This document shows positions 2,805 through 41,457 of a stretch of DNA of 64,000 nt, piece by piece. The stretch is from Flavobacteriales bacterium CG_4_9_14_3_um_filter_40_17 (GTDB lineage: Bacteria; Bacteroidota; Bacteroidia; Flavobacteriales; Flavobacteriaceae): positions 1 through 64,000 of the forward strand of contig PFUR01000028.1 in NCBI GenBank assembly GCA_002790195.1. Direction: 5' to 3'. The stretch's first letter is position 1; every line of letters starts with the position of its first letter. The notes beneath the pieces were generated by a model that was given only the letters and a program-made list of their open reading frames with translations, did not search any database and was not told the origin of the DNA. The position numbers and the translations under genes were made by a program.

Positions 2805-4283
2805 TTAGTAACCCGGATTTTGGGTGAGTGAACCGCCTGATACATCAATTTGTGCTTGCGGAATCGGAGACAGTTCATGCTTGCCATCAACAAATGCTTT
2901 CCCGTGTGCGCGCATGACTTGCCCTGCACGCCCTTGCCTGACTAGGTCAAACCAACGGTCGTGTTCAAAAGCAAGTTCTAGCCTTCTTTCGTTCCAGACA
3001 GCCAAACGGAGTTGGGTCTGGCCAGTAGTTGTCACATCTGGAAGGCTCACTCTCGTGCGTACTTTATTAAGTTGAATTAAAGCGGCCGAAGATTGCCCAA
3101 GTTCGTTTAAGGCTTCTGCATTCATCAATAATACTTCTGCAAAACGGAGTACGCGGATGTTCTTGTTGGATTCCCAGTCGTTCCCGTTAAAAGTTTCGGC
3201 AACACGGCTGATGTAAGCTTTCTCATTATAACGCGGGTTTGGCGGGCTTTGGATGACTTGTTCGCCATCCCACATGGTTTCTCCAGCAAAAATAATGGTC
3301 GCGTTTTTGCGAATGTCATCACCTTGTGCATCATACGCATTGACTAAGTCCTCTGTAGGCGTATTGAATCCCCATCCCCATTGCCCGCGGACGCTTTGGG
3401 AGACTACATAACCTTGTACACCCAAATTTAACGGCCCACCTAGGCCTTGTACTTCAAAAATGGATTCAATCCCGTTTTCGCTACTCTCTCTCCAAAGTGT
3501 GGCATAATCTGCTTGCAAGTCATATTGTCCGGATGCTATCACTTCATCGGTTAAACGTTTTACCTCGTCCCAATTTTTCAGGTACATCTGTACTTTCGCG
3601 AGCAAAGTCAAGGCGGCTCCTGAAGTCGCCCTACCTACTTCCATTTGCGACTTATTGTTTAAATTTTCGGAGGCAAAAGTGAGGTCGGCAATGATTAAAT
3701 CATAGATTTCTGCCTGCGGAATCCTGGTTGAAACCGCCGCCAAATCTTCCGGAACATTGGGGTCTAAAACGCGGTCTAACTTGGGAATATCCCCGAACAT
3801 CCTGACTAAGTTGAAGTAAAAATAAGCTCTTAGGAAATGTGCTTCACCAAGAAGCCTGTTTTTGAAAGCCTCATCTAAAGTGACATCGGGGCTTGAAATG
3901 ATACCAATAGCCGTATTGGATCGGGTAATTCCCCGATAGTTGGCTCCCCAAACTTCATTGAAAGAAGGATCGGTGGAACTAAAAGTGAGCGCGTCCAATT
4001 TGTCTTTATCTGCCCCAGTATCGCCCGGGTCGCTCCCTTTATCAGCATCATCGGAAATGATACTCGAAACACCGTTCCAAGAGAAAGAAAACTGTTGCCA
4101 TTGCAATAAATTATTATAAATGGCATTCACTAATTCGACTGCTCTATCAGTAGAGAAAAAGCCTTCCGGGGTAATTTGCCCTTCAGGTTTTATATTTAAA
4201 TCGTCACTACAAGATGTAAGCGCGAAAAAGGAAATACATCCGGTCAGGGTAATTACTTTGATTGTTTTGAAAATTGTTTTCAT
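2805..4283 (-). CDS. susD: SusD/RagB-family outer-membrane glycan-binding lipoprotein
   Basis: Surface lipoprotein that forms a lid on the partner SusC channel and binds glycan for TonB-driven import. The 492-residue length is usual for the family. The signal peptide ends in a lipobox with cysteine at residue 25 (TSCSDDLN). Family features seen are the N-terminal PEGQITPEGFFS, the TPR-like RAYFYFNLVRMFGDIP block near the middle, the RFAEVLLMNAEALNE helix and the C-terminal WNERRLELAFEHDRWFDLVR followed by a short tail ending in NPGY. It follows susC by 12 bases, the standard susC-susD order. Homology is certain. The bound glycan is inferred only from the neighbouring GH144-like enzymes. Confidence 0.95.
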   Translation of the reverse strand: MKTIFKTIKVITLTGCISFFALTSCSDDLNIKPEGQITPEGFFSTDRAVELVNAIYNNLLQWQQFSFSWNGVSSIISDDADKGSDPGDTGADKDKLDALTFSSTDPSFNEVWGANYRGITRSNTAIGIISSPDVTLDEAFKNRLLGEAHFLRAYFYFNLVRMFGDIPKLDRVLDPNVPEDLAAVSTRIPQAEIYDLIIADLTFASENLNNKSQMEVGRATSGAALTLLAKVQMYLKNWDEVKRLTDEVIASGQYDLQADYATLWRESSENGIESIFEVQGLGGPLNLGVQGYVVSQSVRGQWGWGFNTPTEDLVNAYDAQGDDIRKNATIIFAGETMWDGEQVIQSPPNPRYNEKAYISRVAETFNGNDWESNKNIRVLRFAEVLLMNAEALNELGQSSAALIQLNKVRTRVSLPDVTTTGQTQLRLAVWNERRLELAFEHDRWFDLVRQGRAGQVMRAHGKAFVDGKHELSPIPQAQIDVSGGSLTQNPGY

Positions 4284-4295
4284 AGGTGTATTTTT

Positions 4296-7280: not shown

Positions 7281-7313
7281 TTGTGATTTTGTTTTGAAAA
7301 AATTAACAGTTGT

Positions 7314-7346
7314 CAAATCTAAACACTTAACGGGTAATATAACGCA
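7314..7346 (-). promoter_or_regulatory. Bacteroidota-type promoter of susCD
   Basis: On the minus strand, TAGATTTG at 7321-7314 matches the -7 consensus TAnnTTTG, and a TTG (7346-7344) lies 22 bases upstream as a -33 element. The inferred transcript start near 7307 gives a leader of about 27 bases before the susC ATG at 7280. It supports the inner ATG, because the longer reading frame would begin within this promoter. Confidence 0.55.
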
Positions 7347-7484
7347 AGTAGAGAAACATCAAATGTACATCATGATGTGTTAAAAAATTAAGGTGCCTTA
7401 TATTATAAGCTATTTCAAACGTTTTCGTAGTGATTTATTTGAAAAAGTTTAGTGGAGTTGATGTATGAATGATGTATTATTTAT

Positions 7485-10301
7485 TTAATACTGCAAAAGA
7501 TATTTTGTCAAATCTTCGTTGCGTCCTAACTTTAATTTTTTTCTGAGACGATATCTGTGTATCTCTACTCCTCTGAAAGTTATGTTCATCAAGGGTGCGA
7601 TTTCTTTGTTGGATAAATTCATCCGCATGAACGCACATAGTTTCAAGTCTTTCGGTGTTAGCTCAGGGTTTGATTGAAGTAATTTTTGGTGAAAGGACTC
7701 GTGAACTGCATTAAAATTGGTTTCAAAAACGATGTTTTCTTCATCGCTTTCGATGCTCTTATCAATAAGTCTAAGGAGTTTGTTGTAGTTGTATTGATCG
7801 GTAAATTGTTCTTTTCGAGCCTGAATCTCAGACTTTATTTTTTTAAGCAACTCTTTGTTTTTAATAATTGACATAGCAGAATTTGCCAATTCCTTGTTTT
7901 TATGCTCCAACTCACCTTCAATTTGTCGTGTTTTGATTTGCGTAAGCTGTTTTTCGAGTTCTACCTTTTTGTTTTGAATAATTTTTCTTTGTTCACTGAT
8001 ATGCTTTTTTCTGAGGCGGGCTTGCTGTTTTCGAATGCTGAAAAGGTGGTATTGATAAACTGCATAAAGAATCGATAAAACCAAAATAACGTAGGCCAGT
8101 TTGGCCCAATTACTCCAATACCAAGGCGGCAAAACAATAAAAGAAAATGTTGCGTTTTCCGACTCGTTCGAATTTGGTGTATTATCTATTTTCAACTCAA
8201 AAACATAATTCCCCGCAGGAAGTTTCTTATAGTTAACCGGGGAATAATTAGTTTCAATCCATTGTGAATCATACTCTTTAAGACGATACAAGTAGGGTTT
8301 GTCCTTGTTTATTCCAGAGGCAGTAAATTCAAATATAATGTTGTTTTCTTTGTAGTCTATCTGAAGATTTGTTTCGGTAAGTTTTACATTTTTATTATTT
8401 ACCTTAATGCCTGTGATAATAGGCTTGTAAACTTTTTTTTGAAATTTTAAGATTTGATTCAAATCTATAATTCCAAAACCATCGTCCAAAGTGATAAACC
8501 ATTTTGAGTCTGTTGACTTGTAGATTTTGATGTTGTCTTTGACTAACCTTGAACTAAAATAGACATCCGGTATTTCAAGTACTGGTGATTTCGGGTTTTT
8601 TAAGTCAACATAGAGAATATGGTTTTTAGAATCTAACCATATTTGACGATTGTCTTGATAAATTATGGTAGAATTTTTAAAATTCCCCAGTCTCTTGTTC
8701 AGATTTTCGAAGGGCACAATTGTGTCGTTGAAGCGGTCAAATACAAGCCAGCCCTTTTCAGAAGGGAAAACGATTTGATTGCTAAGATTAAACACACTGG
8801 CTTTGTATTCAGATTCAAGACCCTTTCGGGCATAATCAACTATTCCTATAACGGAGTCAAGTGCTTTGTTCAACTGAAGTGAATAAACTCCTTTGTAGGG
8901 ATGGACGGCCCAAACCTTGGTAGGGTTCTCAAAAACCACATATTTTATAGGATTGTTAAACCCCGTAATTTTCTTGACGTCCCAACTGCCACTTGACGAA
9001 GGTCTGAAAAGTGTTAGTCCGTTATACATTCCTTGTATGTAAGCCAATTGGTCTGGCACTTTATTAATTTTCCATCCACCAATCGTGTTAGGAATCTCTT
9101 TAATTTGATTGTTCTGGATTTCCATTACACCTCGGTTATGAGAAACCAAGGTTTTTCCCTCGACATAGTCGATTTCCCACACATGCCCTTGAGAATGTGG
9201 AACCAGATTCAAAGAATCCTTTTCAAAATAAAACACCCCCTTATTTGATCCCAAAAACATTTTGTCTTTTTTTTGACTGATGGAGTAAACCGTTCCGAGC
9301 AAGCCTGATTTTTCGGTATAAATAGCCAGAGGGGCATCTAAACCCACAAAGTCGATTCCGTTGTCCAACCCGAGCCAAAGCCTACCCGCATCGTCGAAAG
9401 CTTGACTGAGTACCGTATTATTTTGAAGCCCTGCTTTCTTATTGAGATTGTACTTCAATTTTTCTTGGTTATCCAAAACATAAATGCCATTCAGTATGGT
9501 ACCAAAAACCCAATCGCCGTTCGGAAGTACGCTCATATTATTAAGTTGATATTTTTTCAACCATTCATTAACAGGATTTTGCCATTCCCTGACACCATTT
9601 TCTGAAAGCCAATAGCAACCTTCGGAAGCTGTCCCAACGAGAAGTTGATTGTTGATTTGCTGTATCACAACTACATTTTTATCCCTGAAAAATGTTGAAT
9701 GCGCTAAGACACGAAAATTATTTTCTACGGCTTTTGTATAGTAAATCCCTATACCTAAAGCTCCCGCATAAACTGTATCATCAAAAATATTTGACCCGGT
9801 CAGGGTGGCATTCCTGCCCAAAGAAAAAACTTTGGCTTGTTTATCGGTTATAAAAAATTTAGAAAATGATTTGAAGAAAACTTGATCCCCCAAAAATCTA
9901 ATTTCCCAAAATTCTTGATTTGTCAATTCCGAATTGGGCAGGTCTTTGCTCAAAGAAGTGTACGTAAGTATCCCTTCTGAGTTGTATTTAAAGTACCCAA
10001 ACTCTTCATAAGACCCAACATAGACAACACCATCCTTCACCGCAACCGACCTGACTATGGTGCGGTTAGGCATATAATACATTTTCCATTGCATTCCATC
10101 GTAAACAACCAAACCATTGTTGTTGGCCACATACAGAAAATTATTGGAATCTAAAGAAATCCCCCAATTTTGATTTCCTCCCTTATAGACTTCTTTCGAG
10201 TAATTTTCGACATAAGGCGTCAGTTGTTGGCCAAAAAACAAACAAGGTATTGAGACTAAAATAAAGATTACAAAGATGCTATATGGGGTTTTTTTATCCA
10301 T
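7485..10301 (-). CDS. SusR-like membrane regulator (beta-propeller sensor, Y_Y_Y domain, LuxR-type HTH)
   Basis: One-component transmembrane regulator, 938 residues, probably sensing the glycan or its oligosaccharides in the periplasm and switching on the adjacent susCD locus. Seen in order: signal/anchor (residues 1-24); a large repeat-rich region resembling Reg_prop beta-propellers (to about 630); a Y_Y_Y/triple-tyrosine immunoglobulin-like domain (around KPYLYRLKEYDSQWIETNYS); one membrane helix (WYWSNWAKLAYVILVLSILY); a long charged coiled coil; and a C-terminal helix-turn-helix (LTPKDLKLCAFMRMNLSNKE, then MNITFRGVEIHRYRLRKKL). It has no histidine-kinase or receiver domain, unlike hybrid two-component sensors, so it should bind DNA while in the membrane. 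Same strand as susC, 169 bases beyond the susC promoter region. Confidence 0.85.
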   Translation of the reverse strand: MDKKTPYSIFVIFILVSIPCLFFGQQLTPYVENYSKEVYKGGNQNWGISLDSNNFLYVANNNGLVVYDGMQWKMYYMPNRTIVRSVAVKDGVVYVGSYEEFGYFKYNSEGILTYTSLSKDLPNSELTNQEFWEIRFLGDQVFFKSFSKFFITDKQAKVFSLGRNATLTGSNIFDDTVYAGALGIGIYYTKAVENNFRVLAHSTFFRDKNVVVIQQINNQLLVGTASEGCYWLSENGVREWQNPVNEWLKKYQLNNMSVLPNGDWVFGTILNGIYVLDNQEKLKYNLNKKAGLQNNTVLSQAFDDAGRLWLGLDNGIDFVGLDAPLAIYTEKSGLLGTVYSISQKKDKMFLGSNKGVFYFEKDSLNLVPHSQGHVWEIDYVEGKTLVSHNRGVMEIQNNQIKEIPNTIGGWKINKVPDQLAYIQGMYNGLTLFRPSSSGSWDVKKITGFNNPIKYVVFENPTKVWAVHPYKGVYSLQLNKALDSVIGIVDYARKGLESEYKASVFNLSNQIVFPSEKGWLVFDRFNDTIVPFENLNKRLGNFKNSTIIYQDNRQIWLDSKNHILYVDLKNPKSPVLEIPDVYFSSRLVKDNIKIYKSTDSKWFITLDDGFGIIDLNQILKFQKKVYKPIITGIKVNNKNVKLTETNLQIDYKENNIIFEFTASGINKDKPYLYRLKEYDSQWIETNYSPVNYKKLPAGNYVFELKIDNTPNSNESENATFSFIVLPPWYWSNWAKLAYVILVLSILYAVYQYHLFSIRKQQARLRKKHISEQRKIIQNKKVELEKQLTQIKTRQIEGELEHKNKELANSAMSIIKNKELLKKIKSEIQARKEQFTDQYNYNKLLRLIDKSIESDEENIVFETNFNAVHESFHQKLLQSNPELTPKDLKLCAFMRMNLSNKEIAPLMNITFRGVEIHRYRLRKKLKLGRNEDLTKYLLQY

Positions 10302-30537: not shown

Positions 30538-32313
30538 TTAATTTTTTAAGGAAATTGAAGCGGAATTATTTTTTGCAACCAAAGAAATCCCATCATCTAT
30601 TAAATGTCCTACCTCGGGGCGTTTTCGTTTGACATTTTCAAAATGAGTCAAAATTTCTTTACAAAAACCCGGATCGTTAGATAAAACTGCAAGTTCGTAC
30701 AACTCAACCGAAAGCAGCCAATCATTGGGGTGATGCAACAGAATTTCTTCAAAAACCTTGTGGCGTGAGATGGTTTTATTTCTCCCTTCCCTGTACTCTC
30801 TTATTTGTTGATACAATTTTTCCAAAGCTGTTTTCTCAGCAGACTTTCGATGTTTGATGGTTGATTCTTTGGGGATTACGGTCATTCTATCAAAACTTTT
30901 CGTGTCAGCCGGGCCACTGAATGCAGAGATAATTTCTTTGCCAACAGCCATGTTATACAAGCCCCAATCGGGTTGGAAAAGCGTTAGGTTTTGATAGGTG
31001 ACGGTACAATTTTTAAAACTGATGAGAATTATTTTTCCTTGCAAGTTTCTCGTTCCGGTAATAATTTCGCCGGACACTTTGATGCCTCCCTCAAAGTCTA
31101 AAGTCACACATTCACCCTCATAAATGTCATACGCCCGCAAATCGCGCGGGCTCATGTCCTCGATTGCCAAGTTGATGCCTTTGAGCTTGCCTATCGGGCT
31201 TCCAAAACCGGCGGCATGTGTTTTTGCTCCGTGCCCTACCAATTCTTTATCACGTGATGACAACGCCGTTTGTCCACTTGTTTGCACGTAAATCGCTTGC
31301 CCTTCGTGTGCAATCATCTTTGAAAAAACACCGGAAATTTGAATTCCGGTACTCAATTCAATGGTTCCCAAAGCCTTAGAATTTATTAATTTTCGCACCC
31401 CTTTCAATCCGCCTTTCCGGACTGCCATTTGGTTAGCAAATTCTTCCAGTACTAAACTTAAATGAGCAAAGTCTGGCGTTACGTAAAGTTGCGGTTGGGG
31501 TTTTGTGATGTCGAAAGACTGAAAGGCGGCTTCTATCGAGTAGGGTACTTTTTTCACCTGCTTGGTCATACACCACGCGCTTTCACCAATGGAAGACAAC
31601 AATCCGGCACCATAAATTTTCGATTTGTCGGGTGTGCCGATGAGCCCGTATTCGACTGTCCACCAATGCAAATTTCTGATAAGAGCCATTTCGCTGGGCT
31701 CGCTCATGTTTTCTTGTATAAACGACACTTTTTTTTCTGCTTCTTCTATTTCATTTTGATTTGTTCCCTCGGCTTCTTTGATGATGGACAAATGGCGGAT
31801 AGCCTCATACATTTCGTAGTCTTTGGCACTGGCAATAGCTTTGCTGCCTATTTCACCGAAACGCCTGAGGTATTCCGCGTATTCCGGGTTGGCGATGATG
31901 GGGGCATGGCCTGCTCCTTCATGGATGATGTCAGGAGCGGGCGTGTATTCGATGTGTTCGAGTTGACGGATATCGGAAGCAATCACCAGTACATTGTAGG
32001 CTTGAAACTCCATAAATGCATTGGGAGGGATAAAACCGTCCACGGCTACGGCAGCCCAGCCGATTTCTTTTAGAATTCGGTTCATCCCATACATATTCGG
32101 TATGTAGTCTATTGAAATCCCCGTTTTCTTCAAGCCGTCTAAATAGGAATTGTGTGCAACACGACTCAAGTAATCGACATTTTTCCGCATCACATAACGC
32201 CAAACAGCTTGGTCAATCGAGGTATAGTCGTCATAATTTTGAGGTTTGATAAACTGCCGAAGATGCTCGGGTAGTTTATCTAAAACCGGGTTGTTTGGAA
32301 TCGGTTGCTCCAT
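30538..32313 (-). CDS. Aromatic amino acid hydroxylase with long C-terminal extension
   Basis: Non-haem iron, pterin-dependent hydroxylase, 591 residues, probably phenylalanine 4-hydroxylase-like. The start at 32313 is preferred because the conserved region begins there; the longer frame adds 23 residues of low quality. Iron ligands are intact: H131 and H136 (IIHEGAGHAP) and E221 (HWWTVEYGLIG). The catalytic domain carries a charged insertion (about 160-205) between these ligands. Beyond about residue 330 lie some 260 extra residues, with a beta-rich portion (ITGTRNLQGKIILISFKNCTV) and a Lys/Arg-rich helical tail, absent from typical bacterial enzymes of roughly 260-300 residues. Product could be tyrosine or another hydroxylated aromatic amino acid. 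Ordinary single gene. Confidence 0.85.
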   Translation of the reverse strand: MEQPIPNNPVLDKLPEHLRQFIKPQNYDDYTSIDQAVWRYVMRKNVDYLSRVAHNSYLDGLKKTGISIDYIPNMYGMNRILKEIGWAAVAVDGFIPPNAFMEFQAYNVLVIASDIRQLEHIEYTPAPDIIHEGAGHAPIIANPEYAEYLRRFGEIGSKAIASAKDYEMYEAIRHLSIIKEAEGTNQNEIEEAEKKVSFIQENMSEPSEMALIRNLHWWTVEYGLIGTPDKSKIYGAGLLSSIGESAWCMTKQVKKVPYSIEAAFQSFDITKPQPQLYVTPDFAHLSLVLEEFANQMAVRKGGLKGVRKLINSKALGTIELSTGIQISGVFSKMIAHEGQAIYVQTSGQTALSSRDKELVGHGAKTHAAGFGSPIGKLKGINLAIEDMSPRDLRAYDIYEGECVTLDFEGGIKVSGEIITGTRNLQGKIILISFKNCTVTYQNLTLFQPDWGLYNMAVGKEIISAFSGPADTKSFDRMTVIPKESTIKHRKSAEKTALEKLYQQIREYREGRNKTISRHKVFEEILLHHPNDWLLSVELYELAVLSNDPGFCKEILTHFENVKRKRPEVGHLIDDGISLVAKNNSASISLKN

Positions 32314-32422
32314 TTTTTTATGCTTTGTGTAAAAATACAAAGAAATATCGGCTCTTTGTTTTAAATAAAACATAAAAACCATTCGGGTAGAGTGGTTTAG
32401 CCAGTGCGATTGATAAGACTAA

Positions 32423-33248: not shown

Positions 33249-34190
33249 TCAACTGATTTTTTGGAGTTCAGCTAAAATATCGATGTCTTTTGGCAAGCCA
33301 CCAATGCTTTGCAGTTTGATAGAAGCCAGTTTGAGTGCCTTCCGGATACAGGTTTCCGGTGATTTTTCTTGGAGAAAAGCAAAAAGAAAACCTGACCAAA
33401 AAGCATCGCCTGCACCCGTGGCATCGACAATCTTTTCAACGTGCAATGCTTGCTCTTGAATAATCGGGAATCCTTTTCGAGACAGTTTGACACCTTTGCT
33501 ACCCAAGGTCAAACATATCCATTCGACTCCCACTTGGTGGAAATATTCAAAAGCTTCGGCATGGTTTATTTCTCTGCCAAAATAGCGGTAGATGTCGTCT
33601 TCACTGAGTTTGAGCAGCGGATTGTATGCACAAAACGCACGGACAACTTGATGCGCTTCTTCTCGATTTGGCCAGATTTTAGGCGCATAGTTTAAGTCGA
33701 TGCTCAACCTGCAACCCAAAGAATCTGCTTTTTTAGCTTTGGCAAGAATCGTCTGGCGCGCCGGATTTTTACTTAATGCAAAACAGGTGGTATGGAAAAT
33801 CCGTGCTTGCGAAAGCCATTCATCCGGAATTTGAGTTTCATATATTTCTTTATCCGCTTCGCGATAAGCCAAGAAGTCGGGGGTTTGTGTCGTTTTAGAT
33901 ACCAAGATGATGCTGGTCGGGTAATCTTTCAGCACAGCAATACTTTGCCTTTCCAAACTACGTTTGTCCAATTCTTCCAAAACAAACTTCCCCAGCCCAT
34001 CGTTGCCAACACTTGAAATGAGTTTGACTTGCAGCCCCAAACGGGTGGTATTGACGGCCACGTTGGTAGGTGATCCGCCCAAAAACCGTTTGTAATCGAT
34101 TGTTGAAAAAATGTCTGATTCCGTTTGATGACCGATGAAGTCAATCAAAATTTCCCCAATGGATAATATGTCAATGGTTTTCTCACGCAT
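33249..34190 (-). CDS. PfkB-family carbohydrate kinase, probable fructokinase
   Basis: Cytoplasmic ribokinase-fold sugar kinase, 313 residues. The N-terminal signature GGSPTNVAVNTTRLG follows a DILSIGEILIDFIG start, and the C-terminal PfkB signature DATGAGDAFWSGFLFAF carries the catalytic aspartate. These match fructokinases and related kinases of the family (5-dehydro-2-deoxygluconokinase is an alternative). It is the last gene of a tightly spaced operon (4 bases after the GH100-like gene), so it probably phosphorylates the fructose or another hexose released by the upstream hydrolases. Substrate is inferred from context. Confidence 0.85.
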   Translation of the reverse strand: MREKTIDILSIGEILIDFIGHQTESDIFSTIDYKRFLGGSPTNVAVNTTRLGLQVKLISSVGNDGLGKFVLEELDKRSLERQSIAVLKDYPTSIILVSKTTQTPDFLAYREADKEIYETQIPDEWLSQARIFHTTCFALSKNPARQTILAKAKKADSLGCRLSIDLNYAPKIWPNREEAHQVVRAFCAYNPLLKLSEDDIYRYFGREINHAEAFEYFHQVGVEWICLTLGSKGVKLSRKGFPIIQEQALHVEKIVDATGAGDAFWSGFLFAFLQEKSPETCIRKALKLASIKLQSIGGLPKDIDILAELQKIS

Positions 34191-34194
34191 GATT

Positions 34195-35364
34195 TCAGGT
34201 TAACAATTTTTTTCCTTCGAGGCCTCTCGATAGCAAGACAGTAGCCGCCGCACTCCACGAACATTTGGGCACACCGGTTGGCATATTGGTGGCTGTGTTG
34301 AAATTTTCGTAGAAACTCCAATTTTCAACCTCATTGAGCCTGTTGATTTTCTTCAAGACATTTATTGCCAATTCGGTTTGACCATGATTCAACAATCCTA
34401 AACCGTAAAAACCGTTGACCATTTGCCAAGTTCCTCCGTTGTGAAATTCGTAAGGAATGTTTCTAAATTCGTATTTACAATTATTTTCCAGCAACTTCCA
34501 ATCCGGGTCTGCTTCCGTGATGGCAGGCCAAAAGGCAGGCAGCAATTTGGTTTTGACCGAATTGCGGATTTTTTCGCTGTATTTGATGACTTTCTGCGAA
34601 AACTCCTCTTTGTCTATTTCCAAAATCAAGGTCAGTGCGTTGGCAAAAGCATCGTATTGTTCTTGGTAACCGGATGGATTTAAGGCTGCTACCCAATATT
34701 TTTTCTTGCGCAACTGTCCGTAAGCTCTGGGATGGTAGGGTTCGTTGGTGGTTTTTCGTTTTCGGTAATTCTCGGAAATTTTGCGTGTGATACGGGTAAT
34801 TTTCTCTTCATTCTCAACTGATGGGAACAATGCGTTGAAAGCGCGTAAAGCCCAAACCCGCAACAATTGGTCATAGAGGATATAACCTTCGGTGATGTAC
34901 TCATCTGCCCAATTTCCGGATCGAGGCACATACATCAAATGGTTGTTGTTAAACTCCCAAGCTTCCAGTAAATTAAAACCTTTGTTAATGTTGTCAACGT
35001 GCGCTTTTGCAAATGCTAAATCGTTGGTTAATTGCGCATAATTACACAGCCCGATGATAAACCAAGATATGGTGTCAACGCGTCCTGCTAATCCACCAAA
35101 ACTGAGTTTAACGCCATTCTTATCAAAGAAAACATTCGAAGGGATGTTTCCCAAATGATGTTGATGGTTTGAGAGAGTGACAAGAGTTTCTCGGAATGTT
35201 TTTACCAATTGTTCGTCGCCATCCATCAGCGCGGCCAGTCCACAAATGACTCCATCGCGAGCCCAAATGCGCCGGTAATTGGTAATGTCATTGGCACTTG
35301 CCAAAAAACCTTTTTCCGAAGATACCTCTTTCAATAGACCGATGGCGTGGTTGTATGCATTCAT
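34195..35364 (-). CDS. GH100/GDE-like (alpha/alpha)6-barrel glycoside hydrolase, possible invertase
   Basis: Cytoplasmic hydrolase of 389 residues without signal peptide. Motifs resemble GH100 neutral/alkaline invertases and the amylo-alpha-1,6-glucosidase (GDE) barrel: ITNYRRIWARDGVICGLAAL near residue 27, GGLAGRVDTISWFIIGL near 89, ADEYITEGYILYDQLLRVWA, and the C-terminal IPYEFHNGGTWQMVNGFYGL with GVPKCSWSAAATVLL. These correspond to the acidic and His-Asn-Gly blocks of those families. The gene overlaps trehalase by 4 bases and is followed by a PfkB kinase. Sucrose cleavage would explain the kinase, but the exact substrate (sucrose, or another glucoside) is inference. Confidence 0.65.
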   Translation of the reverse strand: MNAYNHAIGLLKEVSSEKGFLASANDITNYRRIWARDGVICGLAALMDGDEQLVKTFRETLVTLSNHQHHLGNIPSNVFFDKNGVKLSFGGLAGRVDTISWFIIGLCNYAQLTNDLAFAKAHVDNINKGFNLLEAWEFNNNHLMYVPRSGNWADEYITEGYILYDQLLRVWALRAFNALFPSVENEEKITRITRKISENYRKRKTTNEPYHPRAYGQLRKKKYWVAALNPSGYQEQYDAFANALTLILEIDKEEFSQKVIKYSEKIRNSVKTKLLPAFWPAITEADPDWKLLENNCKYEFRNIPYEFHNGGTWQMVNGFYGLGLLNHGQTELAINVLKKINRLNEVENWSFYENFNTATNMPTGVPKCSWSAAATVLLSRGLEGKKLLT

Positions 35365-37223
35365 AGGACAAAAATTTTATTGGGATCGGTGAGTAAATCA
35401 AGTTGCCGCCTTAATTCATCTTTTAGAAGAGATAAACCAAGCTGATAGGAAGCGTTCATCCAACCAAAACCGGAGGTTGTGATATAGTCAAATTCTGTCC
35501 CCACATTGCCGTATTCGGCGTAAACCTTGTGGGTGCAGGCGACAACATCGTATTTTTCGGGTATGGTTCCGTTGTAATCGACTGCGTTGCGGGTGATCAT
35601 CCACAACCAACGATAGATTAGTTCTTGTGCTTCTTTTACAAATCCATATTTGAGCAAACCCTTCCAAATCATCATTTGGTGAGGTGCCCAACCGTTTGGA
35701 TAATCCCATTGCCGTTGTGGCTGATTTGCGCCGATGTGCGCAACAGACGCTTTGGAGGTTGCCAAGATTCCGCCTTTTGCTTTAAAAAACCACATCAGGT
35801 TTTGGACTGATTTTTCAGCCTGCTCTTTGCTGCAAACTTCTGCCCAAAGTGGATAAAAATTGGTTGCCGATTCAAAAAAGGTTTGTGTTTTTGTTAGAAA
35901 ATTATAATCGAAAAAGCTGCCTTTTTCGGCATTCCACAGGTATTTGTTCATCAACATTTTTCTGCTGGCCGCTTTTTCTATCCAAAAATCGGTGTGGTAA
36001 TACTTTCCTTTTCGAGTTTTAAATTTGTTTCCGAAATAGGTAGTTGTCAAATAGGCAAAATCTGTTTCATATTTGTAGAGCAAGGCATTGACATCGACAC
36101 AATTCAGATTGGCACAACAATCGTCAAGCCTCCACGAAGTATCGTGCCCGCTCTCGCGAAGGCTTCGGTCGTGGGTAAAATATAAATCCAATTCGGCATC
36201 GGTTATTTCTCTTTCGGCGTATTTTGATTCAAATTCTTTCAGCGGCATTCCGTGTTTGGCTGCAAATTTTTTTAAAACTTCGTCAAAGTGGCCGGCTTCT
36301 GTTTCGGGGGGAATGCCGATGCCTTCAGCGAGGTATCGGTTGAGTCCGTTTTCGGTCAATCTTTTGCCGGGTAACATCCATACGGTTTCGTATTCTTTGA
36401 TGGCAATTTCGATTACATATTGAAGCCAAACCTTGTTTTTTTCAGAATCTGCCTCATAAACTTCCCGGATGAATGAACTCAAAAAAGGAGGTTGTGTCCG
36501 CGTGAGATAATACGTTCGGTTGGCGTTGAGAATTTTGCCGTAGTGTTCGATTTGGTAACAAAAATTGTCCACCATGGATTTGGCTAAATCCAAACGGCCA
36601 TCCAGCAACAGTCCGATGCCTTCAAAATAGCTGTCCCAACCGTACATTTCGTTGAACCTTCCACCGGGAACGACAAACGGAACGCCTTTGTTGTTTTCAA
36701 TTTTAAGCGATAAAATCCCCGGTTTTTGATTGATTCCCAACACATATTGGGGTGTAATTTTTTTAGGGAGCGTTTCTACTTTTAGATTGGGGTGTGTGTT
36801 TTGAAGCCCGGAAAAATATTTTGCTGCAACTTTATCTGTATAGGGAACGTAGATTCGCTGGATCTCAGCTTCCGATTTGTCATCGCTCAATATTTTGTCG
36901 AGGCCTTGCACATCGACCGTTCTTGTCAAATCGTTCCAAAAATAATCACGAATCATCCTAGAAATACGGACAGAGGGAGCTTCTTCGATTTTTGATAGTG
37001 GAATGATAGCTTCGGTTTTACCGAGATTCTTTTCCAAAGCCAATTCTTGCAATAAATTGGATAGAAAATAGATACCTTTCACTTCGTATGCCTTCCCTTT
37101 TTCTGAATGAATCACAAATGATTGAGGCCCTTTGTCTTCCTTGGTGATTTTTTTGTCGCCATCGGTATCTTCTTGGTTCAATAGCTTTTGAAGGGTTTCA
37201 GATATTTCAAGCTTAAACTGCAT
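35361..37223 (-). CDS. treF: GH37 trehalase with N-terminal EF-hand-like loop (fungal neutral-trehalase type)
   Basis: Cytoplasmic alpha,alpha-trehalase, 620 residues, no signal peptide; splits trehalose into two glucoses. GH37 signatures: VPGGRFNEMYGWDSYF near 185-200 (signature 1) and QWDYPNGWAPHQ (signature 2), plus GHDTSWRLDD. Unusually, residues 19-30 read DTDGDKKITKED, a calcium-loop pattern, and the next residues KGPQSFVIHSEKG continue like the Trehalase_Ca-bi module of yeast neutral trehalase. GIPPETEAGHFDE and VLGINQKPG also recall the fungal enzymes. The yeast phosphorylation/14-3-3 tail is absent. It overlaps the MFS gene by 11 bases and the GH100-like gene by 4. Confidence 0.9.
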   Translation of the reverse strand: MQFKLEISETLQKLLNQEDTDGDKKITKEDKGPQSFVIHSEKGKAYEVKGIYFLSNLLQELALEKNLGKTEAIIPLSKIEEAPSVRISRMIRDYFWNDLTRTVDVQGLDKILSDDKSEAEIQRIYVPYTDKVAAKYFSGLQNTHPNLKVETLPKKITPQYVLGINQKPGILSLKIENNKGVPFVVPGGRFNEMYGWDSYFEGIGLLLDGRLDLAKSMVDNFCYQIEHYGKILNANRTYYLTRTQPPFLSSFIREVYEADSEKNKVWLQYVIEIAIKEYETVWMLPGKRLTENGLNRYLAEGIGIPPETEAGHFDEVLKKFAAKHGMPLKEFESKYAEREITDAELDLYFTHDRSLRESGHDTSWRLDDCCANLNCVDVNALLYKYETDFAYLTTTYFGNKFKTRKGKYYHTDFWIEKAASRKMLMNKYLWNAEKGSFFDYNFLTKTQTFFESATNFYPLWAEVCSKEQAEKSVQNLMWFFKAKGGILATSKASVAHIGANQPQRQWDYPNGWAPHQMMIWKGLLKYGFVKEAQELIYRWLWMITRNAVDYNGTIPEKYDVVACTHKVYAEYGNVGTEFDYITTSGFGWMNASYQLGLSLLKDELRRQLDLLTDPNKIFVL

Positions 37224-38433
37224 TTCTTGTGGTTAATTTTTTAAGAATAAAATAAGCTATCAGCAATAAAGTCATCGGAATCAAGGTAAAATAAAAAGCA
37301 TTTTCGGGGCCTTTATTTTTAAACAACCAGCCCACAACCATAGAACCGAGTGAACCGCCCAAGGCTGAAAAGACAACTATCAAACCGGTCATCGGGCTAT
37401 GCAGTTTTTTTGGCAATGCACTCAGGACAACCGAATTGAGCAATGGATAGATAGGAGCAATAAACAACCCGACCAGAGGAAATGCAAAACCAACCAGCGG
37501 GATATCACCGATAGAGCTTATCTCTTTCACTTCGAGCCCTACTGCTTTTGGCAAAACGAAAATCACCAACAACATGGCAGAGATTGTACAAATTATCAAT
37601 ACCCAAATCCAATTGATGTGTTTGGTAATCACCCCGGCAAGGATTCTGCCTATGGCCAATGAAACTGCCAAGATACTCGCCATCATGATGCCTACACTTT
37701 CAGGTAAGTGCAATACTTTGCTGTTGAAAGTCGGCAACCACGACATAATGCCTTGCTCAATCATCACAAAAAGAAAGGCACTGATGACAAATACGATAGT
37801 GAGCAACTTCGCCAAAAGTTTAAACATTTGAAAGAAATCATCCAACAAATCTGCGCCCGGAATTTCAATTGATTTATCAAATTTTGTACTCAACAAAAAC
37901 AAAAAGGACAAACCCGAAAGGCCTGCCAACAACCAATATACATTTAGCCAAGCGTCCGGGTTAGTTGCGTCGTTAAAAGCGGGGAAAAGAAAATAAGCCA
38001 AGGCAATCCCAATCATAAACACGCCTTCAATGCTACTCATCAAGCTGTTGTGTTCTTTTTGGTTCTCGGTCACCAATCCAATCATCGAATAGACAGAAAC
38101 TTTAATCAATGCGAAAGAAACACCCACCGTGGCGAAAAGAATTTTTGCAGACAAAAATGAATTTCCAAAATACATTTGAATGCAGGCCAAGGCTACCAAA
38201 CCCAAAGCAATCAACATCCCGCGTTTGAAGCCAATACGTGGGAGAAAAGAAGCTACCAAAAAAGAAACAATGGCAATCGGCATATCCTTAAACGGTTCTA
38301 ATATGCTGGCTTGAACCTCGTCCACGCCATAATTGTTCTGTGATTTCAAAATCACTATCCCTACACTGTTTAGCAAAATTGCAAATACAAAGTAGTTGAG
38401 ATACATCGATATTTTTATCCCTATATTTTTCAT
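37213..38433 (-). CDS. MFS sugar transporter
   Basis: Major facilitator permease with about twelve hydrophobic helices, 406 residues from the ATG at 38433. The frame continues in-phase to an ATG at 38481, adding a hydrophilic MIGQSGDEAS start; MKNIGIKISMYLNYF looks more like a natural N-terminus and is preferred. Helices include NYFVFAILLNSVGIVIL, PIAIVSFLVASFLPRIG and VGFAFPLVGLFIAPIYPLLNS. It overlaps trehalase by 11 bases, so transport and hydrolysis are coupled. With the upstream SLC45-like permease this operon has two sugar transporters and no SusCD pair. The substrate is probably a disaccharide or a monosaccharide product. Confidence 0.85.
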   Translation of the reverse strand: MKNIGIKISMYLNYFVFAILLNSVGIVILKSQNNYGVDEVQASILEPFKDMPIAIVSFLVASFLPRIGFKRGMLIALGLVALACIQMYFGNSFLSAKILFATVGVSFALIKVSVYSMIGLVTENQKEHNSLMSSIEGVFMIGIALAYFLFPAFNDATNPDAWLNVYWLLAGLSGLSFLFLLSTKFDKSIEIPGADLLDDFFQMFKLLAKLLTIVFVISAFLFVMIEQGIMSWLPTFNSKVLHLPESVGIMMASILAVSLAIGRILAGVITKHINWIWVLIICTISAMLLVIFVLPKAVGLEVKEISSIGDIPLVGFAFPLVGLFIAPIYPLLNSVVLSALPKKLHSPMTGLIVVFSALGGSLGSMVVGWLFKNKGPENAFYFTLIPMTLLLIAYFILKKLTTRNAV

Positions 38434-38591
38434 CTGTTGATATTTGTTTCGACTTGCTTCATCTCCCGACTGTCCGATCATTGGCTAGCCTCGCTTTATA
38501 CAAGTGCTATTTTATCTTTCGTCTCAATCTATTCCATATTCTAGGGCTTCGGGACGGTAGGTATCCAAATCTTGGTTATGTCATTTCTATG

Positions 38592-40058
38592 TTATTTTTT
38601 AAAAGTTAAATTGGCCTCTTCCCCTGTGTCACGTTTTATTCTTAGAGCCAACAATGAGGCAATGATAAAAAATACACCCCCAAACAATATTGCATTTACG
38701 GCACTGTCTCCCAAAAGGTTTTTTACAATAGGCCCGAACGATACAGTCTGGATTCCCATGGGGATAACAATCATCATATTGACGATGCCCATATAGACAC
38801 CTCGGCGTTCCTCCGGCACCACTTTTGAAACCATCGCATAAGGGATTCCCATCATGGTAGCCCAACCAATTCCAAATAATATCATAGGCAAAAGCAACAG
38901 GTATTGGTTTGAAATGTATGGCATGCTCAACATGGCAAGCCCTGTGAGGAACAAACTGCCAACATACACTAGCTTATTGCCATATTTTACTGCAACTGGC
39001 ACCAAAATAAGCGCAACCAGCATGGTGACAAGGTTGTAAGTCCCGTTCATGAGCCCGGTTTGAGCCAATGCTTGCTCCGATAAGGACTGGATGTTTTGGG
39101 CAAAGGAAGTGTCGGCAGCAGTAATTTCGGCGCCGTTCTTACAAGCTTCCATAATGCCATCAAATTTTGCAACGTCTTCATTGCTAATTCCAAATAGGCT
39201 AGTCCTCAACATGGGTGTTATAAACTGCCAATACACAAACAAAGCATACCATTGAAACAGGTAAACCCACGCTAATTTTTTCAAGAGCAACGGCATTCTT
39301 CCAATGGCTTGGTAGATTTCAATAAAAGGTTCGAAAATCCGATGTGACAATGAGTGGCCTTCGTTACGCGTTTTGATGACTTTTAACTCCTGATCTGTAG
39401 GCGGTATCTCCGGAGTTTTTAGTACCGACCACAAAATGGTTCCGATAGACATGATGGCACCCAAAAAGAAAGAATAGTAAACCCACGTTGGGATGGACGA
39501 AACCACTTCGGCTCCCGTGCTGCATAAATTTGCCCCTTCAACAGCAGGGACGCTGAACCAATCTTGGAACAAAAACAATGAAAAGTTGGCTATGGTAATC
39601 CCGGCACCCACAAACAAACTTTGCATTTGAAACCCGTAGGACAATTGATCGTCAGGTAATTTATCGCCTACAAAAGCTCTGTAAGGTTCCATTGCGGTAT
39701 TGTTGGCTGCATCCAAAATCCAAAGCAGCCCCACGGCAAACCACAATTGCGAACTAAAGGGAAACACAAACAAGCATAAACTTGCCAAAATCGCGCCAAT
39801 CAAGAAAAAAGGTTTTCGCCTTCCCCATCGTGGCGACCAAGTTTTATCGGAAATAGCGCCAATCAAAGGCTGAATCAATAATCCGGTAACAGGGCCTGCA
39901 AGATTTAATAAAGGCAACTGGTCGTGGTGAGCACCCAAAAAAGAAAAGATGGGATTGACAGCCGTTTGTTGCAACCCGAAACTGAACTGGATTCCGAAAA
40001 ACCCCACGTTCATGTTCCATATTTGCCAAAAGGAAAGCCTTAATTTAATTGGTTTCAT
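38592..40058 (-). CDS. SLC45/GPH-like sugar:proton symporter
   Basis: MFS symporter of 488 residues and about twelve helices, most like the SLC45/plant-sucrose-transporter group. The N-terminal FGIQFSFGLQQTAVNPIF precedes helix 2 (LAGPVTGLLIQPLIGAISDK), and the loop SPRWGRRKPFFLIGA holds the conserved RWGRRKP motif of sucrose and related symporters. A long periplasmic segment (about 200-245) and a cytoplasmic loop follow. It is the first gene of the operon, behind the promoter at 40179, and faces a divergent LacI regulator. Sucrose or trehalose uptake is likely by family and context, not proven. Confidence 0.85.
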   Translation of the reverse strand: MKPIKLRLSFWQIWNMNVGFFGIQFSFGLQQTAVNPIFSFLGAHHDQLPLLNLAGPVTGLLIQPLIGAISDKTWSPRWGRRKPFFLIGAILASLCLFVFPFSSQLWFAVGLLWILDAANNTAMEPYRAFVGDKLPDDQLSYGFQMQSLFVGAGITIANFSLFLFQDWFSVPAVEGANLCSTGAEVVSSIPTWVYYSFFLGAIMSIGTILWSVLKTPEIPPTDQELKVIKTRNEGHSLSHRIFEPFIEIYQAIGRMPLLLKKLAWVYLFQWYALFVYWQFITPMLRTSLFGISNEDVAKFDGIMEACKNGAEITAADTSFAQNIQSLSEQALAQTGLMNGTYNLVTMLVALILVPVAVKYGNKLVYVGSLFLTGLAMLSMPYISNQYLLLLPMILFGIGWATMMGIPYAMVSKVVPEERRGVYMGIVNMMIVIPMGIQTVSFGPIVKNLLGDSAVNAILFGGVFFIIASLLALRIKRDTGEEANLTFKK

Positions 40059-40178
40059 CTTAGTTTATAGTTGGTTTTAGAATCGTGCTGCAGTAGTTGG
40101 TCTTCATTGCGGGCAAACCTATTTTAACGCCAATCTCCCTGTAAACTAATGCCATCAAGGCCTCTCTAAGCCAGAAAG

Positions 40179-40212
40179 CAAAGTTAATAAACATTAAATT
40201 GTTCATGGCCAA
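40179..40212 (-). promoter_or_regulatory. Promoter of the disaccharide operon
   Basis: On the minus strand TAACTTTG (40186-40179) matches TAnnTTTG exactly, with TTGG (40212-40209) 22 bases upstream. The inferred start near 40172 gives a leader of about 114 bases before the SLC45-like gene. Confidence 0.5.
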
Positions 40213-40389
40213 TTCTAAAGTTTCTAAGTTGGTTGAAAAAGATACTATGCACCAAATGATATTAAATCATTAATATTGCTTATTTAAGTTTAATGAATTG
40301 CCAAACTTAATTAATCAAAATTTGTCGAATATACATTTTAAAGCCAAAAGAAAAAAAAATAGCATATAAATTTATCAATTCAGAATACC

Positions 40390-40406
40390 GAAACCGTTTT
40401 AGTTTC
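40390..40406. promoter_or_regulatory. Candidate LacI-family operator
   Basis: Inverted repeat GAAAC (40390-40394), 7-base centre CGTTTTA, GTTTC (40402-40406). It sits where the -33 element of the regulator promoter would be, with a -7 match TATTTTTG at 40425-40432. It suggests autorepression; only one copy was seen in the intergenic region. Confidence 0.4.
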
Positions 40407-40434
40407 ATAAATTTAACGTAAAATTATTTTTGCA

Positions 40435-41457
40435 ATGCATGATGTAACACTCAAACAAATAGCTGAAATATTAAACATCTCGATTACAACGGCCTCAAAA
40501 GCTTTGAAAGATTACAAAGATGTCAGCCCAAAAACACGCATTGCTGTGCGGAATTTGGCCGAAAAACTAAATTTTAAACCTAACACGACTGCACTCAATC
40601 TCAGAAACAAAGAATCCAAAACCATAGGCTTACTCATTCCTGAAATTGTGCATCACTTTTTTTCCAACGTCATCAATGGGGTCATCGTTGAAGCGGAAAA
40701 CCATGGATATTTAGTCATTGTACTTATCTCAAACGATTCTTATGAACTGGAAAAAAGACAGGTTGAACTCCTTTTAGACAAGCGGGTGGACGGGATACTC
40801 GTCTCACTCGCAGGAAGCACAATTGAGACCAGCCACATCAAACAAATCCTGAAAAAAGAAGTTCACTTAGTCATGTTTGATAAAATTTCAAATGACATCA
40901 ACTGCTCCAAAATCATCATTGACGACCAAAAAGCTGCTTTCCAGGCCACCGAAAAGTTGATTCTTTCCGGTTGCAAAAAAATTGCTCACTTTAAAGGGCC
41001 TGATGGACCCAAAACATCCCTCGACCGATTCTTAGGATACAAAGATGCCTTGGAAAAGCACCATCTATCTTACCACTCTGATTTGGTTTACACCAGCAAA
41101 CATGTCAGCTTGGAAGATGGTTGGGCATATATGGAACAAGCACTTGAAGAACATCCAGACCTCGATGGGATCTTTACCATTACCGATTTGGTTGCCGCAG
41201 GCGCACTTCGTTATTGCCAGGAAAACCTTATAGCCGTACCCGATAAAATTTCCATCATGGGATTTAGTAATTGGTTTGTTTCCGGGTTGATGACCCCTTC
41301 ACTCAGCACGGTTGACCAGCCCGGTTTTGAGATGGGAAAAGTTGCTTTCCTACAATTATTAAAGGAAATCGAACTGAAAAAAAATCAACAAACCATCGAG
41401 CCCGAAACCATCATAATCCCAACCTCAATAGTGATTCGACAGTCAACAAAAAATTAA
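40435..41457 (+). CDS. LacI-family transcriptional regulator
   Basis: Sugar-responsive repressor or activator, 340 residues. The N-terminal LacI helix-turn-helix is VTLKQIAEILNISITTASKA with the hinge YKDVSPKTRIAVRNLAEKLN; the periplasmic-binding-protein-like domain follows (ESKTIGLLIPEIVHHFFSNV, VDGILVSLAG, LDGIFTITDLVAAGALRYC, and STVDQPGFEMGKVAFLQLL). It is divergent from the trehalase/GH100-like operon and most likely controls it in response to the imported disaccharide. A -7 element (40425-40432) ends only two bases before the ATG, so the transcript may be leaderless; see findings. Confidence 0.92.
   Translation: MHDVTLKQIAEILNISITTASKALKDYKDVSPKTRIAVRNLAEKLNFKPNTTALNLRNKESKTIGLLIPEIVHHFFSNVINGVIVEAENHGYLVIVLISNDSYELEKRQVELLLDKRVDGILVSLAGSTIETSHIKQILKKEVHLVMFDKISNDINCSKIIIDDQKAAFQATEKLILSGCKKIAHFKGPDGPKTSLDRFLGYKDALEKHHLSYHSDLVYTSKHVSLEDGWAYMEQALEEHPDLDGIFTITDLVAAGALRYCQENLIAVPDKISIMGFSNWFVSGLMTPSLSTVDQPGFEMGKVAFLQLLKEIELKKNQQTIEPETIIIPTSIVIRQSTKN

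Follow-up and report, generated by a model that had tools for sequence, protein, structure and literature searches.

A five-gene cluster in the 64,000-nucleotide stretch of Flavobacteriales DNA analysed here (the window) is best explained as a LacI-controlled operon for two disaccharides, trehalose and sucrose, in which, on the most economical single reading, sucrose would be phosphorylated before it is cleaved. We judge this reading just probable. An SLC45-like symporter would import sucrose and a second transporter (MFS2) trehalose, which a trehalase would split into two glucoses. A PfkB-family kinase would transfer phosphate from ATP to the fructosyl 6-OH of sucrose, giving sucrose-6F-phosphate, and a GH100-type enzyme (GH100L) would then cleave this into glucose and fructose-6-phosphate, the whole two-sugar operon being repressed by LacI. 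We infer every substrate, what each transporter carries, which of the sucrose steps comes first, and that LacI acts as a repressor; computed gene content, protein families, fold, co-occurrence and partner swaps form the observed part of the case.

Gene order, the trehalose module and the regulator

The genes for PfkB, GH100L, trehalase, MFS2 and the SLC45-like symporter occupy positions 33249-40058, all on the minus strand and opposite the lacI gene. The coordinates of these six open reading frames given in the initial annotation were reconfirmed, and the compact five-gene cluster with two MFS transporters that it described is real: on the minus strand the MFS2 and trehalase genes overlap by 11 bases, the trehalase and GH100L genes overlap by 4 bases, and a 4-base gap separates GH100L from PfkB, while the SLC45 gene is located upstream, 110 bases from the listed start of MFS2. 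The gene order is identical in a 94% relative, HGW-Bacteroidetes-13 (L044), and in each of the 25 named contigs from one scan the gene next after GH100L was PfkB; the cluster is therefore conserved and not a product of chance. Promoter-like and terminator-like sites in the window were near shuffled counts, in a scan that did not cover Bacteroidota promoters.

Gene order was compared across 86 loci, the window plus 85 fetched stretches. The latter were found by searches with GH100L, PF07492, MFS2, trehalase, PfkB or GH13_18 and are thus not a random sample, and several of them end at contig ends. A gene was counted as near when it lay within 6 kb of GH100L, GH13_18 or an Nth1-type trehalase and exceeded fixed bit limits. 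Eight stretches with distant GH100 homologues (L091-L097 and L238), the plasmid stretches L240-L246 and short match-only loci were excluded from the table. The comparison divided the cluster into a trehalose module, MFS2 plus Nth1-type trehalase, and a sucrose module, SLC45 plus GH100L plus PfkB.

By its sequence, the trehalase (35361..37223, minus strand) is a GH37 enzyme of the yeast Nth1 neutral type with an N-terminal EF-hand-like calcium loop (residues 19-30), a trait that had escaped the initial annotation. It scored 462 bits against Pfam Trehalase (PF01204), 34.2 bits against Trehalase_Ca-bi (PF07492, cut-off 25) and 569 bits against yeast Nth1, compared with at most 134 bits against other PDB trehalases. 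The Asp residues of the loop and the catalytic pair, which we take to be D478 and E674 in Nth1 numbering, were kept in 39 of 39 trehalase sequences. These 39 bacterial enzymes share 43-50% identity with yeast Nth1, but they are encoded in a bacterial operon setting and have a short N-terminus, with a median of 18 residues before the loop. The N-terminus of yeast Nth1 has 14-3-3 sites; the shortness of this region means that they are absent from the window trehalase. The proposed trehalose permease, MFS2 (37213..38481, minus strand), was assigned from its MFS_1 match and its trehalase neighbourhood. In 20 family genomes its neighbour was an Nth1-type trehalase (18), a TreF-type trehalase (1) or a GH65 protein (1). 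Because its matches in relatives mostly start near residue 12-17, the true start may be at about 38433.

The LacI-family regulator (40435..41457, plus strand; Pfam LacI and Peripla_BP_1/3) has relatives divergent to both the sucrose and the trehalose modules. A palindrome, TCGAAAACGTTTTCGA, occurs upstream of orthologous lacI genes; the loci that served to choose this consensus are also those in which its occurrences were counted. It was not found in the window at three or fewer mismatches. A candidate degenerate operator with four mismatches, ACTAAAACGGTTTCGG (40388..40403, minus strand), is unchanged in L044. Scanning the organism's own genome with this site at up to two mismatches gave four hits including the site itself, versus ten in the reversed control, and thus no LacI regulon could be read. 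Overall, the initial annotation was partly supported. LacI-linked cytoplasmic use of trehalose finds support here, and sucrose, which had been offered as "perhaps" the second sugar, is very probably that sugar.

Proposed entry of sucrose

The proposed sucrose permease (38592..40058, minus strand) is an SLC45/plant-SUT-like GPH symporter. Its best NCBIfam match was TIGR01301 (GPH_sucrose), although the score of 99.7 bits was below the cut-off of 511; against Pfam MFS_1, the two transporters of the cluster gave 97 and 98 bits. SLC45 was present in 50 of the 60 sucrose-module loci. It also occurred in six loci that have no sucrose enzyme, and L046 has MFS2 but no trehalase; both observations count against the explanation proposed above.

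A TonB receptor accompanied 32 of 44 sucrose-only loci versus none of the 16 loci combining sucrose and trehalose; L168 and L177 have incomplete TonB-receptor frames that scored below the bit limits of the table. In the sucrose loci read, the receptor gene is followed by SLC45 rather than by another gene of receptor type. Genes further downstream in sucrose loci were provisionally labelled "Mae" and "RuvA", both putative. As initially annotated, the window cluster has no SusCD: its open reading frames include no susC/susD pair, the criterion for a PUL, and neither a TonB receptor nor a SusD. Five SusD-like matches were found in the organism's own genome, one of them in the window at 3591-4061. 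We also searched this genome for an orthologue of the sucrose TonB receptor. All 18 matches were partial, the best with 33% identity over about 290 residues, and no dedicated sucrose receptor was therefore identified. The initial description of such an arrangement as uncommon in the phylum has to be softened in one respect, as a TonB receptor was lacking from all 16 of 16 combined loci.

The GH100-type hydrolase and its kinase partners

GH100L (34195..35364, minus strand; 389 aa) is of GH100 type by sequence and by predicted fold, as the initial annotation had suggested. It scored 62.9 bits against PF12899 (Glyco_hydro_100; cut-off 23.6). The nearest solved folds to its AF2 model (mean pLDDT 87.6) were InvA, InvB and plant neutral invertase, with Z scores of 39.0-40.9, the next family reaching 35.9; the alignment with InvA (Z 40.9) covered 368 residues at 2.8 A. 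D154 aligns with the catalytic Asp of InvA. The profile alignment places E353 opposite the InvA Glu, whereas a single-sequence alignment puts it three residues away; we take the InvA pair to be D188/E414. Both residues are conserved in the aligned GH100L homologues, L244 having no row in this alignment, except in one interrupted frame (seen as L022/L094). GH100L shares with InvA and InvB of Anabaena and the Arabidopsis neutral invertase the (alpha/alpha)6 fold, the catalytic Asp and Glu and an HNGG motif, which reads HNAG in InvB. Unlike these invertases, to which it is 17-21% identical in structure alignments, it is short and lies in a sugar operon, in most loci together with a partner kinase. 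GH100-like proteins of 24-28% identity on Deinococcus and Variovorax plasmids stand in other contexts and were counted for neither reading of the sucrose steps.

The adjoining kinase (33249..34190, minus strand) belongs to the PfkB family (Pfam, 154 bits) and not to the uridine-kinase-like P-loop type of AgaSK that is found in relatives. Its best PDB sequence match, 3hj6 (181 bits), is named a fructokinase. None of the listed NCBIfam equivalogs reached its cut-off, the narrow fructokinase model giving 114.6 bits against a cut-off of 450; matches to fructokinase and other sugar kinases were stronger than those to the hexose kinase and 1-phosphofructokinase models (49 and 45 bits). In 19 of 19 genomes with this PfkB (E <= 1e-55), the adjoining partner was either GH100L (10) or a GH13_18 enzyme (9).

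GH100L (47 loci, the window included) and GH13_18 (13 loci) never occurred together, and PfkB was kept in all 13 GH13_18 loci. In L200, L201, L202 and L204, the GH13_18 enzyme stands among the same LacI, TonB receptor, SLC45 and downstream neighbours that surround GH100L in many loci. Over the fragments compared, the identity of the GH13_18 enzymes to Ilumatobacter IcSPP (6s9u) amounts to 60-64%, and two papers report phosphorylases of this type to be strict for sucrose-6F-phosphate (PMC6720575, PMC7178133). The seven tested residues of these strict enzymes (R152, K364, K373, Y376, Y377, Q378 and K434) were kept in 13 of 13 sequences; the plain sucrose phosphorylase of Pseudoalteromonas (L246) reads NVDLYQ and is without R152, K364, K373, Y376 and K434. 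In the kinase tree, PfkBs of GH13_18 loci were nested among those of GH100L loci, the starred branches forcing at least two label changes.

The kinase can be exchanged as well. A P-loop kinase of about 220 aa stands in PfkB's place beside GH100L in L082, L234, L235, L237 and a Gemmatirosa plasmid, and L088 gave a partial match to it. A profile of four such kinases scored 88 bits (best domain 81) on the AgaSK-type protein L245, compared with 50 bits for the best PDB chain, 45 for 5b3f and 34-35 for chains of uridine/uridine-cytidine kinase 2, indicating that the replacement kinase is related to the kinase part of the AgaSK-type protein. In one genome (L236), GH100L and PfkB are fused in that order in a single protein of 719 aa.

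Proposed order of the kinase and hydrolase steps

We propose that PfkB acts as a sucrose 6F-kinase and that GH100L hydrolyses sucrose-6F-phosphate, their rival roles being those of fructokinase and neutral invertase. The initial annotation had not considered that the pair may act on phosphorylated sucrose. Phosphorylation as the first step is suggested by the swap of GH13_18 and GH100L beside the same PfkB, by the P-loop kinase swap and by the GH100L-PfkB fusion. It is further favoured because the GH13_18 type releases fructose-6-phosphate, which a fructokinase does not use, and because PTS_EIIC (PF02378, the only PTS family searched) had no match in the organism's own genome, 7 of 14 controls being positive. 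Against it, no residue of GH100L linkable to phosphate binding was identified in the homologue alignment, and L231 and L233 have GH100L without a nearby kinase of the PfkB or P-loop types, so that the enzyme can occur without one. Arg32 had appeared an attractive phosphate-binding candidate in an alignment of clades A-D; it was dropped because it is absent from the kinase-linked L234, L237 and L240 and present in the kinase-less L231 and L233.

The textbook order, in which sucrose imported by SLC45 is split by GH100L, acting as a cytoplasmic neutral invertase, into glucose and fructose, the latter being the substrate of PfkB as a fructokinase, with MFS2 and trehalase serving trehalose, is a serious alternative that we consider less probable. 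The best fold and sequence matches of GH100L are invertases (InvA, InvB, CINV1), some of the matched PDB chains having been solved with plain sucrose, and that of PfkB is the named fructokinase; adjacency or fusion of the two genes fits this order equally well. The available part of a study of Shewanella describes a comparable pathway (ScrR-II, ScrT-II, ScrP, ScrK and Omp-Scr), with a transporter, a plain sucrose phosphorylase and a fructokinase under a LacI regulator (PMC2996990). However, 13 loci pair the same PfkB lineage with the strict phosphorylase type, from which free fructose is apparently not formed, and in other loci a P-loop kinase akin to a sucrose kinase domain takes PfkB's place. 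Invertase followed by fructokinase thus requires at least two changes of kinase substrate, or GH13_18 enzymes that act on sucrose despite all tested residues being intact.

Both routes might operate at once, PfkB taking the fructofuranosyl 6-OH in sucrose and in free fructose and GH100L cleaving sucrose and sucrose-6F-phosphate. This would account for the two types of partner found beside a single kinase lineage and for the kinase-less L231 and L233, but we regard such dual specificity of either enzyme as unlikely. We give still less credence to PfkB being a phosphofructokinase that converts the fructose-6-phosphate from GH13_18 or GH100L into fructose-1,6-bisphosphate, with sucrose-6F-phosphate coming from elsewhere. 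The kinase adjoining the Thermoanaerobacterium sucrose-6F-phosphate phosphorylase, next to a PTS, was so interpreted in the available part of its description (PMC7178133); this case and that of Shewanella mean that a kinase beside GH13_18 is not diagnostic alone. The weak matches to the hexose kinase and 1-phosphofructokinase models agree with such an activity, but the stronger matches to other sugar kinases and the relationship of the replacement P-loop kinase to a sucrose kinase domain do not, and the lack of PTS_EIIC would leave the source of sucrose-6F-phosphate unexplained. That the GH100L arm serves another alpha-glucoside, such as glucosylglycerate or mannosylglycerate, is hardly credible, since the models for glucosylglycerate hydrolase and MGH1-like GH, which it matches weakly, score under their cut-offs whereas GH100 scores above its own, GH100 chains rank first among the folds with a lead of 3 to 5 Z units, and GH100L is swapped for a sucrose-phosphate-type phosphorylase.

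The proposed kinase-first arrangement resembles, in the parts of the literature available, the Rgaga1 locus of Ruminococcus gnavus, where a gene for a sucrose kinase, AgaSK, reported to phosphorylate glucose C6, lies in the same cluster as one for a sucrose-6F-phosphate phosphorylase (PMC6521584, PMC7688924). In these portions the authors propose that a PTS-type import supplies the phosphorylase with its substrate, and their models do not have AgaSK feeding the phosphorylase (PMC6521584, PMC7688924); the reported glucose C6 specificity and the proposed import both count against our reading. Relatives of both Rgaga1 enzymes recur, separately, beside PfkB or GH100L in our loci. Unlike Rgaga1 as described there, the window has a PfkB-family kinase, a GH100-type cleaving enzyme, joined trehalose genes and MFS symporters in place of an ABC transporter, and no alpha-galactosidase. 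With the Shewanella pathway, as far as the available description goes, it shares a LacI regulator, an inner-membrane sucrose permease and a sugar kinase; most sucrose-only relatives also share the TonB receptor that the window lacks, but GH100L or a sucrose-6F-phosphate-type GH13_18 stands here where Shewanella has a sucrose phosphorylase with a fructokinase.

More broadly, there may exist in Bacteroidota and some other phyla an ATP-driven, PTS-free sucrose pathway that begins with a kinase and in which the kinase (PfkB or AgaSK-like P-loop) and the enzyme that cleaves its product (GH100-type hydrolase or GH13_18 phosphorylase) behave as modules that can be exchanged freely, a generalization that we place marginally short of an even call. 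If true, a sucrose 6F-kinase would join the PfkB family, GH100 would gain a new substrate, and the strict phosphorylases would gain, in the neighbouring PfkB kinase, a source of sucrose-6F-phosphate in bacteria without a sucrose PTS. The names "fructokinase" and "GH100 invertase" would then be misleading for these operons, and an ATP-first route would be added to sucrose catabolism.

Gene content and regulation of the cluster

All six genes that the initial annotation had placed at 33249-41457 are present there. Counted from the LacI side, the minus strand carries genes for an SLC45/SUT-like symporter (488 aa), a second MFS transporter (MFS2, 422 aa), a GH37 trehalase (620 aa), a GH100-type hydrolase (GH100L, 389 aa) and a PfkB kinase (313 aa), and LacI (340 aa) is encoded divergently from this run of five. 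The tight packing was borne out as well, the last four of the five genes overlapping or lying at most 11 bases apart. The proposed family calls were supported by Pfam, whose cut-offs were passed by PfkB, GH100, trehalase, trehalase Ca-binding domain, MFS and LacI; none of the NCBIfam models listed for the six proteins attained its cut-off. All parts fall in known superfamilies. The assembly comprises 87 contigs (2.69 Mb, completeness 99.5%), and among named contigs, MAGs of Bacteroidetes and Flavobacteriaceae come nearest. In the closest of these, HGW-Bacteroidetes-13 (L044), gene order is identical and GH100L matches at 94%. Outside the cluster, past a DUF4136 gene, lies an open reading frame (30538-32382) that, by the look of its sequence, we take to be aromatic amino acid hydroxylase-like.

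Upstream of their lacI genes, relatives carry a 16-base palindrome, TCGAAAACGTTTTCGA, usually in two copies spaced by 20-21 bases. Two copies with at most 2 mismatches were found at 21 of the 31 lacI-like genes examined, among them those of the trehalose-only loci L070, L072 and L073. The window's only copy, at 40388-40403, is degenerate (4 mismatches); L044 has the identical site. The cluster is likely to be under LacI control, for which the window's candidate operator is weak evidence.

The absence of SusCD that had been proposed holds for the cluster; the five SusD-like matches of the genome all lie outside it. On the same contig, about 26 kb from the cluster, positions 3591-7262 include one SusD-like match and, in an open frame of 1020 aa, another to a TonB receptor. 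Among 86 loci (the window and 85 stretches fetched by homology searches, hence not a random sample), a TonB receptor, of about 875 aa in most, was found in 32 of 44 sucrose-only loci, 8 of 24 trehalase-only loci and none of the 16 two-sugar loci, the class into which the window falls. A search of the window's own genome for the sucrose-locus receptor gave partial, distant matches only.

Sucrose and trehalose modules

We compared gene order across these 86 loci. Sixty contained a sucrose module, with either GH100L (47) or a phosphorylase-type GH13_18 enzyme (13) and never both. A sugar kinase was encoded within 6 kb in 57 of the 60 (PfkB in 53, a P-loop kinase in 4); the loci without a counted kinase were L088, which lies near a contig end and in which 95 residues match part of the P-loop kinase, L231 and L233. 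No such kinase was found in the 24 loci with a trehalase of the yeast neutral (Nth1) type but no sucrose enzyme. MFS2 was present in 32 of 40 loci with Nth1-type trehalase. We separately drew 149 genomes of the window's own family, taken to be Flavobacteriaceae. Among these, the trehalase search matched 35, by score 20 of Nth1 type and 15 of the shorter TreF type. MFS2 was found in 20, adjoining an Nth1-type trehalase in 18, a TreF-type trehalase in G106 and a GH65 protein in G047; G007 and G143 had Nth1-type trehalase without MFS2. A Pseudoalteromonas relative of MFS2 (L246, 44.5%) directly precedes a TreF-type trehalase. These counts indicate that MFS2 goes with trehalose enzymes and PfkB with sucrose enzymes; L046, which has MFS2 and no trehalase, departs from this. 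SLC45 is less firmly assigned to sucrose: it accompanied 50 of the 60 sucrose modules, yet 6 trehalase loci that lack a sucrose enzyme have it as well.

Other gene combinations were seen. GH97 enzymes lie within the operons of L082, L087, L089, L172, L174, L179 and L180, accompanied in L087 by an ASPIC/UnbV FG-GAP protein and a PAP2-family protein. Three loci from other families of the phylum (L069, L071, L075) combine trehalase, MFS2 and a TonB receptor with a GH65-family protein. Outside Bacteroidota, plasmid 2 of Gemmatirosa kalamazoonensis (L240) carries a similar cluster, with a TreF-type trehalase, an SLC45 relative, GH100L and an AgaSK-like P-loop kinase.

The window trehalase is itself of the Nth1 type (569 bits, versus at most 134 for other PDB trehalases). 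An alignment of 39 such sequences, the window's included, gave 43-50% identity to yeast Nth1, and D478, E674 and the Ca-loop Asp residues at 114, 116 and 125 are invariant in it. Two loop positions differ from yeast: 118, Asn there, is Asp in all 39 sequences, and 120, Gln there, is mostly Lys. The stretch ahead of the loop ranges from 16 to 80 residues (median 18). A scan for the trehalase Ca-binding domain (PF07492) matched 18 of the 395 genomes searched in this phylum and no genome of the 14 used as controls. Searches of open-licence literature found no paper on Nth1-type trehalase in bacteria. In L176 (G112) the trehalase frame is split or stop-interrupted, by pseudogene formation or assembly error.

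Exchange of cleaving enzyme and kinase

The GH100-like call was upheld by an AlphaFold2 model of GH100L (mean pLDDT 87.6), whose nearest structures are GH100 invertases (Z 39.0-40.9; next family 35.9), and "invertase" is therefore the natural first reading. In L236, from a distant genome of the phylum, a GH100L domain is followed by a PfkB domain in one protein (7031-9187).

More distant GH100 relatives were also noted. L013-L022 (four again as L091-L094) and L238 encode proteins of about 630-730 aa with a C-terminal GH100-like domain, 26-31% identical to GH100L, with S and L where the operon enzymes have R95 and R301. The N-terminus of the only one scanned (L091) is sucrose-phosphate-phosphatase-like (TIGR01485, 159 bits, under the cut-off of 184); the next gene encodes a GT4 glycosyltransferase with sucrose-phosphate-synthase-like matches, also under cut-off. 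In L022/L094 (G071) the GH100-like domain is split or stop-interrupted (pseudogene or assembly error). Deinococcus plasmids (L241, L243, L244) encode distant GH100-family proteins, one adjoining a ROK-family protein; the other two cluster with genes for a carbohydrate kinase and a four-carbon acid sugar kinase.

The GH13_18 enzymes that occupy the GH100L position in 13 loci are 60-64% identical to Ilumatobacter IcSPP over the compared fragments. All 13 keep the KxxYYQ motif and K434, K364, R152 and Y377, reported contributors to fructose-6-phosphate affinity, as well as Q378, a predicted one (PMC6720575, PMC7178133). IcSPP-like enzymes are reported as strict for sucrose-6F-phosphate (PMC6720575, PMC7178133), in a clade already said to include Flavobacteriia (PMC6720575). 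By contrast, a Pseudoalteromonas sucrose phosphorylase has NVDLYQ, keeps Y377 and Q378, and lacks R152, K364, K373, Y376 and K434; its listed neighbours within 8 kb include no kinase. Judged by these features, the 13 enzymes seem unlike plain sucrose phosphorylases. A neighbouring kinase does not by itself tell the two types apart, since in Shewanella a fructokinase is reported to accompany a plain sucrose phosphorylase (PMC2996990).

The PfkB proteins of GH13_18 loci nest among those of GH100L loci, with at least two forced changes, which indicates that the kinase lineage persisted and the cleaving enzyme changed. This PfkB (E <= 1e-55) was found in 19 of the 149 family genomes (two of them read as L050 and L061), beside GH100L in 10 and GH13_18 in 9. 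The kinase is exchanged too: a roughly 220-aa P-loop kinase adjoins GH100L in L082, L234, L235, L237 and the Gemmatirosa plasmid, and is partly seen in L088. A profile of four such kinases matched an Agathobacter protein (L245) with the AgaSK architecture at 88 bits (81 for the best domain), compared with 50 bits for the best PDB chain, 45 for 5b3f and 34-35 for uridine/uridine-cytidine kinase 2 chains. The L245 protein, with a putative kinase part, adjoins a YYQ-type GH13_18 enzyme. All four kinase/cleaving-enzyme pairings therefore exist.

An invertase acting with a fructokinase is a possible though less probable explanation. Several points speak against the kinase-first pathway favoured below: solved GH100 enzymes are invertases, in L231 and L233 GH100L stands with no kinase of these types nearby, and a candidate phosphate-binding residue of GH100L failed its conservation test and was dropped. 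Also against it, Ruminococcus gnavus AgaSK is reported to phosphorylate sucrose (PMC7688924), but at glucose C6, and its authors see sucrose-6F-phosphate as coming from PTS-type import (PMC6521584, PMC7688924). We found no PTS_EIIC match in the window's own genome. A strict phosphorylase yields glucose-1-phosphate and fructose-6-phosphate, so that a fructokinase beside the 13 GH13_18 enzymes would lack a task, whereas a kinase making their substrate would fit. The GH13_18 exchange, the PfkB nesting and the P-loop kinase exchange argue against a plain invertase. Mixed action, a phosphofructokinase role or another substrate are, even taken together, improbable.

Adjacent genes for a sucrose kinase and a sucrose-6F-phosphate phosphorylase have a precedent in R. 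gnavus (PMC6521584); the open-licence literature searched yielded no PfkB sucrose kinase, GH100 sucrose-phosphate hydrolase or such pathway in Bacteroidota. We slightly favour a kinase-first pathway, in which PfkB or the P-loop kinase would make sucrose-6F-phosphate and the cleaving enzyme would split it, GH100L by hydrolysis and GH13_18 by phosphorolysis. With one function for each position, such a pathway would account for all four pairings.
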